Positions 25,875-42,226 of a DNA stretch of 64,000 nucleotides are shown piece by piece. The DNA is from Sinohyriopsis cumingii. Lineage: Eukaryota; Mollusca; Bivalvia; Unionida; Unionidae. Both the position numbers and the translations under genes were made by a program. The notes beneath the pieces were generated by a model. The model saw only the letters and a program-made list of their open reading frames with translations. It made no database searches and was not told where the DNA came from. Each line of letters opens with the position of its first letter. The stretch's first letter is position 1. Where the stretch lies: positions 33,434,901-33,498,900 of the forward strand of contig CM068835.1 in assembly GCA_028554795.2 (NCBI GenBank). Direction: 5' to 3'.

Positions 25875-26461
25875 AGCAGCAGAGAGGGCGATCAGACCAC
25901 TTAAGGGAGTGGTCACCCTTGTGTTTGGACCCAAAAAAAATAGTGACCCTTCATAGAAGTCAATACCACGTCTACGATTATTGTTTGTCCCAAACAGAAT
26001 TGTAGACGCCCCCTCTCTGCTGCTATTCATGTTGTAAAAGAAATTTTTACCACCATATCAAGTTTGATAAATATTTTTCTTGTTCACCTGAATCATGGGA
26101 ATCTTCGGAATCTTCGGAATCTTCATCTGAATCATGGGAATTTGTTCTATGTTTCATGTAATATTCAAGTTCTGATGGTGGTTTTTCTATTTTTGGATTT
26201 ATGTTCTTTCTTTTTCTGTAATAGTTCATCAAACTTCGATATCGATCTCCACCGCAATTTTTGCAAATCTGATATAATCCTCTAACGCCGTTGTTACATC
26301 CAACACAACTTCGTGGACCAGCATGAGAATTTTTCTTCATAAGATAATTATGTTTCTTGCAATATTCTCCACGGCATTTTTTATCACATTTGTTAGTCGT
26401 TCCTTGACGCAGCCACGCACAGTTGTTCATTATATGAATGATATCTTTTTAATTAAATTTA
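25875..26461 (+). repeat. Left terminal inverted repeat (587 bp)
   Basis: Reverse complement of 41640-42226 with only a handful of visible differences: about five substitutions and two one-base indels that cancel in length. It contains the cysteine-rich gene (26430-26047) and a foldback terminal segment of about 150 nt (see the right TIR). The sharp loss of similarity at 26461/41640 sets the inner boundary. Confidence 0.93.
26047..26430 (-). CDS. Small cysteine-rich zinc-binding protein (TIR copy, left)
   Basis: 127 codons, starting at an ATG preceded by ATTCATATA. Two metal-binding-type clusters are visible. The first is C-x(9)-C-x3-C-x4-C-x2-H near residues 4-26 (NKCDKKCRGEYCKKH). The second is a CxxC...CxxCGG ribbon at about 42-60 (CVGCNNGVRGLYQICKNCGG), followed by a basic patch and an acidic, Ser/Asp-rich repeat tail (DSEDSED). 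The same protein is encoded in the right TIR with four residue differences in the tail, and a shorter paralogue lies at 35731-36030. Function unknown; DNA or RNA binding is an inference from the zinc clusters. Because it lies in the repeat, the element carries two copies firing in opposite directions. Confidence 0.8.
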   Translation of the reverse strand: MNNCAWLRQGTTNKCDKKCRGEYCKKHNYLMKKNSHAGPRSCVGCNNGVRGLYQICKNCGGDRYRSLMNYYRKRKNINPKIEKPPSELEYYMKHRTNSHDSDEDSEDSEDSHDSGEQEKYLSNLIWW

Positions 26462-26505
26462 CACCCCTTCTGCTGATATTAATTAAATCATTATGTTATA
26501 ATAAA
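26431..26505. promoter_or_regulatory. Divergent promoter, left end
   Basis: 75 bp separate the TIR gene (minus) from the first virion gene (plus). TATATGAAT lies at the minus ATG and TTATGTTATAATAAA directly before ATG 26506, the TATA-at-ATG arrangement seen throughout this element. Confidence 0.45.
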
Positions 26506-27487
26506 ATGGTACATTCGGAATCTCATACTGCAAGAATAGCTCGAGAACGATTAGAAGCAATTAAAAAATTTCTTCCTGTCAGAGACTCATTCAGAAAAAA
26601 TCTACAAGCGCAGCAAGAAGCACAAGTTGAGTATGAAGAGGACACTAAAAAACTATTTAAACCCGTCACTGCAACTACTAAGAAAGTTAGAACTGTCATC
26701 AAAGACGATCTTCTTCCGGTATCAAGACAAACTGCAGCGCAGACTGAGGAGATAGCAAGAACAACTAGACAGACAGGGGAGATTTTAAGAAATCTTCCAC
26801 CTGGCATAGCTAGGGAAATAGCTGCAGCTCAACCTCCACCTGTTGGTGAGAAAATACTTGAAGAAATTGGAAAACTTCGTACTGATCTCGCCGACGTTGA
26901 AAAAGAACATGTATCTAAACCCAAACCAGCAGGAGAAAACTTAGAATTAATTGCAAGATTTAACGAAGGAGTTGTTGATGTTATTAGAAATACTGAAAGA
27001 GAAAAATTACCTGAGATGATATTAAATAATATATTTGATAAATCTAGTATTTTAAAACCCCGTCATGAAAAAACAAATGATGATAATTTCATTAAATGGA
27101 TATATCGCGTATATTACAACAAAAAACAAGCTAGAGGTCTAGAATACAAAAGTCTTGATAGAGAAGTAAAAAGACTTTATAGAGAGAGACTGAAACAACT
27201 AGAACAAGAAGAATTCTCCCAGTATCAGCTTCCTCCACCTCTGCAACAAATAGAACAACAGCAATCCTCTTCGCCGCAGCAAAAGTTGAAGTCGGAACTT
27301 AAAAGGGCTGAAGAGCTACTTAAAAAATCAGCGGAAAAAGATCACCCTTCGGGAAGAAAATTCCTTCACCTTTACGTAAAATTCCCGCGCCGGAAATAAC
27401 ATTTACACCGATAGATACACCACCTGGATTTCGAATAAGTGACTTACCTGGCTCACCCCGGGTCACCACTGAAGTACTTACTCGGTA
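26506..27487 (+). CDS. Coiled-coil protein of the virion arm (frame break near the end)
   Basis: Start chosen at ATG 26506, just outside the TIR and right after TTATAATAAA; an upstream in-frame extension is only the antisense of the TIR gene. About 280 residues, highly charged: basic N-terminus, long helical stretches (TEEIARTTRQTGEIL), a segment around residue 195 (FIKWIYRVYYNKKQARGLEY), and a Gln/Pro/Glu-rich end. The initial frame stops at 27399, but from about 27350 another frame stays open, is proline-rich, and ends at 27488 in a TAATG junction with the next gene, which indicates a one-base shift. No family is recognised; a virion-associated or scaffold role is suggested only by position ahead of the capsid gene. 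Confidence 0.7.
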
Positions 27488-27715
27488 ATGCAACCACCAC
27501 CTCAAGATGAACCTAAAACAGGATCTGGTTTATGTCCTGATAATATCATCAATGACGTGTCACGGTTAGAAGTTCTTATAGGAGGAAAACGTGCCGGAAA
27601 TAATTCACCAGAAATAATTAATGAAGCAGCTGATATTTGTCGGCGATTATTTCAGGGTGGTATCATGGATATCGGAGTTTACCGAGAGCTTATCGATGAA
27701 CTTGTTGATGACTAG
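27488..27715 (+). CDS. Small acidic protein, unknown
   Basis: 75 residues. The ATG overlaps the stop of the upstream gene in TAATG, which supports this start. Helical C-terminal half (EIINEAADICRRLFQGG, then VYRELIDELVDD) and a GLCPDNIINDV segment. Not recognised. It lies in the run of virion genes, all on the plus strand, between the coiled-coil protein and a basic minor-capsid-like protein. Confidence 0.65.
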   Translation: MQPPPQDEPKTGSGLCPDNIINDVSRLEVLIGGKRAGNNSPEIINEAADICRRLFQGGIMDIGVYRELIDELVDD

Positions 27716-27726
27716 TTGTTAGATAA

Positions 27727-40954: not shown

Positions 40955-40968
40955 GACATAATATATAT
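40955..40968. promoter_or_regulatory. 14-bp divergent promoter between PLA2 and ATPase genes
   Basis: Only ACATAATATATAT separates the two start codons, so both genes must share one AT-box. The region leaves no room for conventional leaders. Confidence 0.5.
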
Positions 40969-41634
40969 ATGGATATAATTGATTTCTCAGCGACAAGAAA
41001 ACGAGAGCCAGTTAAACACCACCCTGCGTTACCAAATTCCATCAGAATGATTATCATAGGACCATCTGGATCGGGTAAGACGCAGTTATTACTTAATCTG
41101 ATAATGAGATGGTTGAAATGGGATAAATTGTATTTAGTAGCACCATCCGCTGATGATCAACGATGTTATGATGTACTTAAAGATTTCAATGAAAACGCGC
41201 GATTACTGGATGAGGGTTATGATGTTATAGAGTTTATAACCGATATTGGTGAAGCACCGTCCGTAGATTCCATAGACGGATTTATTAATAATTTAGTTGT
41301 ATACGACGATGTGATGCTAGATAAACAATCAAATCCAGCCAGAATATTTTCCCGAGGGAGACATAAAAATACAGACGTGATCTATGTTACTCAACGATAC
41401 ACACAAATTCCGAAGGTGATTAGAGACAACTGCAACATTTTAGTTGTGTTTAATGGCGTAGACACACACACACTTAGAAATATTCATCAAATTTGGTGTG
41501 GTGGTGACATGGATATAATTAAATTAAAAAATTTCTTCTCACGAGCGCAAGCTACTCCACATGGATTTATAACAACAAATCTACATGGTCCAAGAACAAG
41601 ATATCGTGTGGGTCTTGATAAAATATTTGGGTAA
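40969..41634 (+). CDS. FtsK/HerA (A32-like) DNA-packaging ATPase
   Basis: 221 residues, an intact frame. Walker A GPSGSGKT at 31-38, Walker B NNLVVYDDV at about 107-115, and a sensor-like VIYVTQRYTQIP at about 140. This is the genome-packaging ATPase common to Polintons, virophages and nucleocytoplasmic large DNA viruses; it pumps DNA into the capsid. The ATG follows ATAATATATAT shared with the divergent phospholipase gene. It ends 6 bp before the right TIR. Together with integrase, protease and capsid genes it forms the core set of virus-like Polintons. Confidence 0.92.
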   Translation: MDIIDFSATRKREPVKHHPALPNSIRMIIIGPSGSGKTQLLLNLIMRWLKWDKLYLVAPSADDQRCYDVLKDFNENARLLDEGYDVIEFITDIGEAPSVDSIDGFINNLVVYDDVMLDKQSNPARIFSRGRHKNTDVIYVTQRYTQIPKVIRDNCNILVVFNGVDTHTLRNIHQIWCGGDMDIIKLKNFFSRAQATPHGFITTNLHGPRTRYRVGLDKIFG

Positions 41635-41639
41635 ATTAA

Positions 41640-42226
41640 TAAATTTAATTAAAAAGATATCATTCATATAATGAACAACTGTGCGTGGCTGCGTCAAGGA
41701 ACGACTAACAAATGTGATAAAAAATGCCGTGGAGAATATTGCAAGAAACATAATTATCTTATGAAGAAAAATTCTCATGCTGGTCCACGAAGTTGTGTTG
41801 GATGTAACAACGGCGTTAGAGGATTATATCAGATTTGCAAAAATTGCGGTGGAGATCGATATCGAAGTTTGATGAACTATTACAGAAAAAGAAAGAACAT
41901 AAATCCAAAAATAGAAAAACCACCATCAGAACTTGAATATTACATGAAACATAGAACAAATTCCCATGATTCAGATAAAGATTCCGAAGATTCCGAAGAT
42001 TCCCATGATTCAGATGAAAAAGAAAAATATTTATCAAACTTGATATGGTGGTAAAAATTTCTTTTACAACATGAATAGCAGCAGAGAGGGGGCGTCTACA
42101 ATTCTTTTTGGGACAAACAATAATCGTAGACGTGGTATTGACCTCTATGAAGGGTCACTATTTTTTTTGGGGTCCAACACAAGGGTGACCACTCCCTTAA
42201 GTGGTCTGATCGCCCTCTCTGCTGCT
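41640..42226 (-). repeat. Right terminal inverted repeat (587 bp) with foldback terminus
   Basis: Reverse complement of 25875-26461. The outermost 150 nt fold back on themselves: the inner arm 42077-42094 (AGCAGCAGAGAGGGGGCG) pairs with the outer arm 42211-42226, leaving two extra G. Between them lie smaller inverted repeats (CGTCTAC...GTAGACG and CCACT...AGTGG). Such a shape resembles hairpin telomeres. It contains the right copy of the cysteine-rich gene. Confidence 0.9.
41671..42054 (+). CDS. Small cysteine-rich zinc-binding protein (TIR copy, right)
   Basis: Second TIR copy of the protein at 26047-26430. The zinc clusters (CDKKCRGEYCKKH and CKNCGG) are identical. Only the acidic tail differs, with four substitutions (for example DSDKDSEDSED against DSDEDSEDSED). 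The ATG follows CATTCATATA, 37 bp after the ATPase stop, so it could be read from its own promoter or from the ATPase transcript. Confidence 0.8.
   Translation: MNNCAWLRQGTTNKCDKKCRGEYCKKHNYLMKKNSHAGPRSCVGCNNGVRGLYQICKNCGGDRYRSLMNYYRKRKNINPKIEKPPSELEYYMKHRTNSHDSDKDSEDSEDSHDSDEKEKYLSNLIWW

Follow-up and report, generated by a model that had tools for sequence, protein, structure and literature searches.

The 64,000-nucleotide window analysed here (Sinohyriopsis cumingii, contig CM068835.1, positions 33,434,901 to 33,498,900) carries at 25875-42226 a 16.35-kb unit flanked by 587-bp terminal inverted repeats (TIRs). With a probability of roughly 0.77 this unit is a damaged, integrated virus-like element that combines a capsid gene, an rve integrase and a polymerase–helicase fusion and that was likely replicated, packaged and inserted by its integrase. 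We assign it to a polinton-like lineage with a Tlr1-type replicase that is present in thousands of copies in a likely animal genome. This gene set, together with about 11,000 replicase-motif stretches, suggests that the element was likely once copied, packaged and spread like a virus. A first-pass annotation of the window had already proposed a virus-like Polinton-type element, and the TIRs, the 5-bp target duplications and the capsid, protease, ATPase and integrase genes recognised by homology bear this out. The window copy itself is dead. Its frames for replicase, integrase, fibre, HNH-NUMOD1 nuclease and candidate penton are broken, and intact single genes are found among copies at other loci.

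The replicase gene lies on the plus strand in three parts, namely 36074-38719 (N-terminal region, phi29-like palm and first half of a superfamily 1 (SF1) helicase), 38770-39237 (C-terminal helicase half in a different frame) and 39238-39504 (C-terminal HNH domain), with interruptions after 38719 and by a stop ahead of 39238. Palm and helicase sequence share one frame of 881 amino acids (aa) that matches AAA_19 (E 2.8e-10); the modelled folds resemble RecD2, Dda and Pif1, and in the palm model residues 333-693 align with phi29 from about residue 177-195 up to residue 499. Relatives carry the second helicase half in the same chain, so that a C-terminal SF1 helicase belongs to the same protein, and in P0002, P0003, P0005 and P0007 this chain also includes the HNH domain, which was detected in 16 of 20 sampled copies. 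Ahead of the palm a region is present where a terminal-protein domain is expected (the model is of low confidence in parts), and, as candidate residues of a vOTU domain, C179 is found in 23 of 23, H260 in 27 of 27 and H263 in 26 of 27 of the rows with a residue at that position.

This is the plan of pPolB-S1H, as described for polinton-like viruses (PLVs) such as Tlr1 and for transpovirons, some members of which carry a C-terminal HNH or GIY-YIG domain (Krupovic et al. 2024, PMC11071308); for the element studied here, absence of the exonuclease is predicted. Tlr1 of Tetrahymena and PLVs share with the mussel element the palm with C-terminal SF1 helicase (the “Tlr1-like helicase” in PMC11071308 and PMC4028283), the C-terminal nuclease, a double-jelly-roll (DJR) capsid and a packaging ATPase and, in the case of Tlr1, the rve integrase. 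In contrast with Tlr, for which the relevant text of PMC4028283 states its absence, the mussel element has an S273R/adenain-like protease, and it differs from Tlr1 and PLVs also by its likely animal host, a phospholipase A2, a phage-like fibre, a TIR-borne Cys-rich gene and 10,969 motif matches within one genome. The endogenous polinton-like virus OmPLV of Oxyrrhis marina has an SF1 helicase fused to pPolB too, but there the helicase is N-terminal, the exonuclease is kept and an independent fusion is reported (PMC12721341). HelPol, a replicase of animal-associated viruses, has a similar-sounding name only; identity with it was rejected because PMC11071296 describes a remote resemblance to cellular PolBc and Pol-Delta. 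The replication module is unusual for a Polinton-type element, as had been noted at first, but not new as a kind (PMC11071308). PMC10294476 reports Mavericks from every mollusc genome that it analysed, so that Polintons as such are no novelty in this phylum either. Among the titles and abstract openings listed by searches of the polinton, Maverick, adintovirus and mollusc literature, none describes a pPolB–helicase fusion in animals; it is the kind of replicase, the scale and the architecture that these searches did not show. The same replicase type also occurs in the arbuscular mycorrhizal fungi Gigaspora, Diversispora, Cetraspora and Racocetra (P0011, P0017, P0020, P0022, P0027-P0032).

Polintons measure 15-20 kb and have 5-6-bp target duplications, and phospholipase A2 is present in adintoviruses. 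An ordinary adintovirus or Maverick with a divergent polymerase, closely akin to the canonical Polintons of the host, would account for the rve integrase, DJR capsid, A32-like ATPase, phospholipase A2 and cysteine protease, all of which are common with polintons (phospholipase A2 is described from some of them by Yutin 2015, PMC4642659). We nevertheless regard this as quite improbable. The element resembles canonical Polintons and Mavericks in integrase, capsid, ATPase, protease and TIRs but departs from them in having helicase and HNH as parts of the replicase, and PF03175, the profile that recognises the canonical Polinton polymerase, found no match at E ≤ 1 in the 881-aa frame, palm included. 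In the same genome the profile gave 150 above-cut-off matches in 75 scored candidates (of 21,499). They cover profile positions of about 6-218, the first part of the profile being presumably the exonuclease region, and about 195-427, many of them in frames near 1359 aa. Canonical Polinton polymerases (e.g., C7:122372215, C3:14965201 and C12:99897248) therefore coexist separately with the helicase-bearing kind, and two replication plans within one genome make direct comparison possible. Adintoviruses share with the element the association with animals, the rve integrase and the block of virion genes. Their definition includes a C-terminal integrase chromodomain, a hexon recognisable by BLASTP and a PolB that has an OTU-like domain at its N-terminus (Buck et al. 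2024, PMC11071296). Here the polymerase is of another kind, and in Pfam (E ≤ 0.1) two sister integrases with open frames (327 and 330 aa) matched rve but no chromodomain. Measured against that definition, the label “adintovirus” of the first-pass annotation is not supported.

The capsid gene (28252-29625, plus strand) is identified by PF21738, a structure model and fold matches; the fold match to adintovirus and MELD rows of BFVD is only 11% identical, which also speaks against an ordinary adintovirus. None of 108 capsid homologues is labelled adintovirus, though most rows carry no label. The named Hydra proteins P0105 and P0131 are among the capsid relatives; PMC10120064 reports cnidarian capsids as the sole metazoan ones outside its main Maverick–Polinton cluster. 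Against PDB sequences neither the capsid profile (best E 0.2) nor an open-frame sister penton (best E 0.12) found anything useful. The remaining genes of the virion and integration set comprise an S273R/adenain-like cysteine protease with an additional weak Peptidase_C5 match (30067-30522, plus), a fibre with a phage-tail-fibre-like region (30541-31546, plus, split here into 30541-31293 and 31223-31546), a candidate penton or minor capsid gene with broken frame that is placed by position (31989-33420, plus) and an A32-like genome-packaging ATPase (40969-41634, plus, by profile match). On the minus strand follow the rve integrase (39497-40451), the core (39747-40451) and C-terminal part (39497-39802) of which lie in separate frames, the latter without profile match, and a phospholipase A2-like protein with N-terminal DUF5679 domain (40454-40996, profile match). 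Elsewhere one open frame joins the integrase pieces in seven of eight loci, the HNH-NUMOD1 pieces in nine of ten, the fibre pieces in nine of eleven and the candidate penton halves in five of ten.

The limits of the unit were set at 25875-42226 because the terminus AGCAGC is common to all 13 TIR pairs that were examined. For this 40 of 2738 candidates in the genome (an assembly of 2.9 Gb in 1138 contigs) were scored; 26 of them paired into 13 copies and 14 were set aside. Thereby the annotated unit and its repeats are confirmed. The left TIR (25875-26461, plus) has the terminus AGCAGCAGAG with CCATA alongside at 25870-25874, and the right TIR (41640-42226, minus) is accompanied by TCATA at 42227-42231, i.e., a target duplication matching in four of five positions. 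Aligned over 588 nt the two arms are identical at 580 positions (about 98.6%), and their divergence of 1.4% falls within the 0.3-2.8% seen across the 13 pairs. Paired TIRs span 15.6-17.0 kb in twelve copies and 6.5 kb in one. The flanking 5 bp are identical left and right in nine of 13 pairs and agree in at least four of five positions in twelve, while none of 156 mismatched left–right flank pairs gave an exact match. An rve integrase, TIRs and a short (5-bp) target duplication, as typical of Polintons and Mavericks, are thus found together. Contamination or misassembly, by which parasite or virus DNA became joined to host contigs, is hardly credible in view of these distinct flanks and target duplications on copies across chromosome-sized contigs and of relatives in Sinanodonta woodiana whose contigs measure 143 and 165 Mb; in its favour, some copies look like assembly or segmental duplicates (the TIR pairs at C14:108.78 and 110.05 Mb and the copies at C10:64.94 and 65.19 Mb).

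Unusual genes within the TIRs had also been noted, rightly: a Cys-rich, predicted zinc-binding protein with acidic tail is encoded in both arms (26047-26430, minus, and 41671-42054, plus), each copy reading outward. A homologue search gave two candidates and none at E ≤ 0.001, the sole NCBIfam match was far below cut-off and PHROGs had none. The core of the gene is open in 24 of the 26 arms, the broken ones being both arms of one copy, and length changes are confined to the acidic tail. Codon variants seen in at least three arms are synonymous in eight cases and non-synonymous in two (51 synonymous and 219 non-synonymous sites). An internal Cys-rich paralogue, likewise predicted to bind zinc (35731-36036, minus), stands next to the replicase in 18 of the 20 copies sampled, and the TIR-borne gene was seen only in the lineage of the window. 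Of eight downstream pieces, five have the octamer CTGCTGCT at 4.20-4.23 kb, L074, which is 95% like the window, has it at 4.6 kb, and L070 and L073 gave no match. The Cys-rich gene accompanies this octamer in L074 alone. On the simplest reading of these sequences the internal gene was duplicated into the TIRs of one lineage.

From this inventory a life cycle can be proposed. The fusion, for which protein priming and the absence of an exonuclease are predicted, would replicate linear DNA from the inverted repeats. An N-terminal terminal-protein domain would prime synthesis at the TIR ends, a vOTU-like protease (C179, H260/H263) may free the terminal protein and the helicase may stand in for the missing exonuclease. 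The product would be packaged in the DJR capsid, and the integrase would insert the element at 5-bp staggered cuts. Putative roles of the other proteins are maturation (protease), membrane escape (phospholipase) and attachment (fibre), and the Cys-rich protein could be a regulator or end-binding factor; in the lineage of the window its gene would be a duplicate of the internal one, carried in each TIR.

Further copies in the same genome, which the first-pass annotation had suggested looking for, are abundant. A codon pattern of replicase motif B has 10,969 exact genome matches (5576 + 5393), a count that includes assembly duplicates, which occur in the copy lists, and truncated copies; the reversed control pattern has 0 + 1. 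The best 52 of 34,139 first-look replicase candidates, i.e., only those nearest to the window, are all 94-100% identical to it, and 36 of them have an open frame of at least 1150 aa and ten contain stops. Likewise the best 93 of 35,303 capsid candidates, again those nearest to the window, are all of full length and 89-100% identical, and 84 are free of stops. A quality-blind sample (every third of the first 58 motif matches on C1, n=20) showed polymerase and helicase sequence in all 20; in eleven the frame from stop to stop measures 990 aa or more. Together with the window, these eleven long frames make up at least four groups that are 57-67% identical to each other. Pairs from the same group have dN/dS values of 0.06-0.36 (all 19 with pS < 0.6), which shows that the replicase is under purifying selection in several lineages.

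Several points weigh against the reading as a formerly packaged virus-like element. The evidence for it is that of the genome sequence. Confidence in the replicase model is only moderate (pLDDT 64.1, pTM 0.43). That no exonuclease is seen is a non-match, the phi29 alignment starting only at about residue 177-195, and the silence of PF03175, which misses even the palm, proves nothing about this domain. The terminal-protein and vOTU assignments are deduced from position and conserved residues, and the predicted penton identity of 31989-33420 is a positional call that profile and PDB searches did not confirm. In the quality-blind sample nine of 20 copies are broken (frames of 32-749 aa), and the sampling required an intact 7-residue motif, a bias toward intact frames. 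Concerning the TIR gene, one further copy (L033/L034) is without one cysteine in both arms, and the ratio over all variants is 0.40, so that part of the variation is decay. Finally, scans of IMG/VR with replicase, capsid and replicase alignment revealed no relative by the patterns tried, and purifying selection equally fits a transposon without virions. Such a transposon would multiply only in germ-line genomes and keep the capsid genes for another role. The very high copy number, the several lineages in one genome and the IMG/VR result speak for it. It is unlikely all the same, given the capsid frames open in 84 of the best 93 scored copies, the protease, ATPase and phospholipase frames that persist in sampled pieces, and a fibre whose divergence, against steadier neighbouring genes, fits exchange of attachment modules.

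The comparison covers twelve upstream pieces (values are best local stretches only). Fibre tails are 79-93% identical to the window in seven and 26-45% in five, as against 61-90% for the capsid and 54-94% for the genes of PX, protease, membrane protein and penton. In L055 the fibre tail is 88% and the replicase 57% identical to the window, which suggests that fibre modules were exchanged between lineages. Longer alternative fibres of 472-1079 aa instead of the usual about 340 aa occur at L058:1465-4701, L062:758-2413, L065:7327-9108 and L061:4943-6358; in L062 and L065 they match coiled-coil families. The sampled copies mostly agree in gene order. In each of the twelve upstream pieces, stretches of capsid (partial in five), PX, protease, fibre and penton lie to one side of the replicase, and two of the pieces (L062, L065) have the structural block inverted with respect to it. 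In all eight downstream pieces helicase and HNH stand behind the palm, followed in seven by integrase and phospholipase on the opposite strand and the ATPase; the piece of L073 runs into the left part of another element instead. In L057 and L073 the genes of another element are directly adjacent in the same orientation, with 10.9 and 12.5 kb between the motifs, perhaps as tandem or nested insertions. A tandem (concatemer) arrangement, considered because of motif pairs at 10-13 kb and these two loci, is not claimed.

The replicase tree (36 rows, solely mussel, sea-slug/coral, fungal and unlabelled ones, midpoint-rooted) contains three clades, each with support of 100/100: the genome's own copies with P0001-P0004, P0008 and Sinanodonta; Elysia and Desmophyllum with further unlabelled rows; and the fungi Gigaspora, Cetraspora, Racocetra and Diversispora. 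Long-branch warnings touch the Sinanodonta and fungal rows. The named relatives that come closest by identity belong to two freshwater mussels, Sinanodonta woodiana and Potamilus streckersoni. Some rows from outside the assembly branch between lineages of this genome; should they represent other species, these lineages are older than the species splits. A distinct lineage, as had been supposed, is probable. Tentatively, and at somewhat less than even odds, we go further and propose an undescribed lineage of animal DNA viruses at family or order level in freshwater mussels (and, by replicases, also sea slugs and corals), which would combine a protist-virus-type replicase with polinton-type virion and integration genes, have left about 11,000 germ-line insertions with many coding-competent genes, fibre swaps and block inversions, and still make particles. 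In the literature consulted, pPolB-S1H is described for protist-associated PLVs and transpovirons. An animal genome that carries it alongside integrase, capsid, protease and fibre genes, in several lineages and in thousands of copies, many with open frames, would extend the known host range of this replication strategy and offer an animal in which to seek polinton-type virions. Should most motif matches mark near-full elements (about 16 kb each), as much as about 6% of the genome would consist of them (an upper estimate with duplicates and truncated copies included), and such amplification, if true, would account for part of its large size.

The window copy contains further genes. At its left end a charged protein with a coiled coil predicted by eye (26323-27399, plus; the first ATG lies within the TIR and a later start is possible) has no convincing family in profile scans and shows stretches 28-40% identical in L062, L065 and L073. 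It is followed on the plus strand by a small conserved open reading frame (ORF) of 80 codons (27473-27715), which is 64-80% identical in L061/L073 (same gene), L062, L064 and L065. ORFs and comparison with other loci further define a basic protein, predicted to be core or membrane-active (27727-28218), a small Ala/Gly-rich predicted minor virion protein (29655-30050) and a predicted membrane protein (31549-31902), all plus. On the minus strand a conserved protein without assigned function occupies two frames (33715-34178) that correspond to a single frame of 167 aa in L056 and L066, and a homing-type HNH-NUMOD1 nuclease gene with broken frame (35221-35738) is recognised by profile match. An Rfam scan of the window gave no match. 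Outside the element an ORF at 53390-54037 (plus) has a weak SCAN-domain match below cut-off (E 1.7e-4), and tandem arrays of 76-bp and 37-bp repeats are located at 49661-50433.

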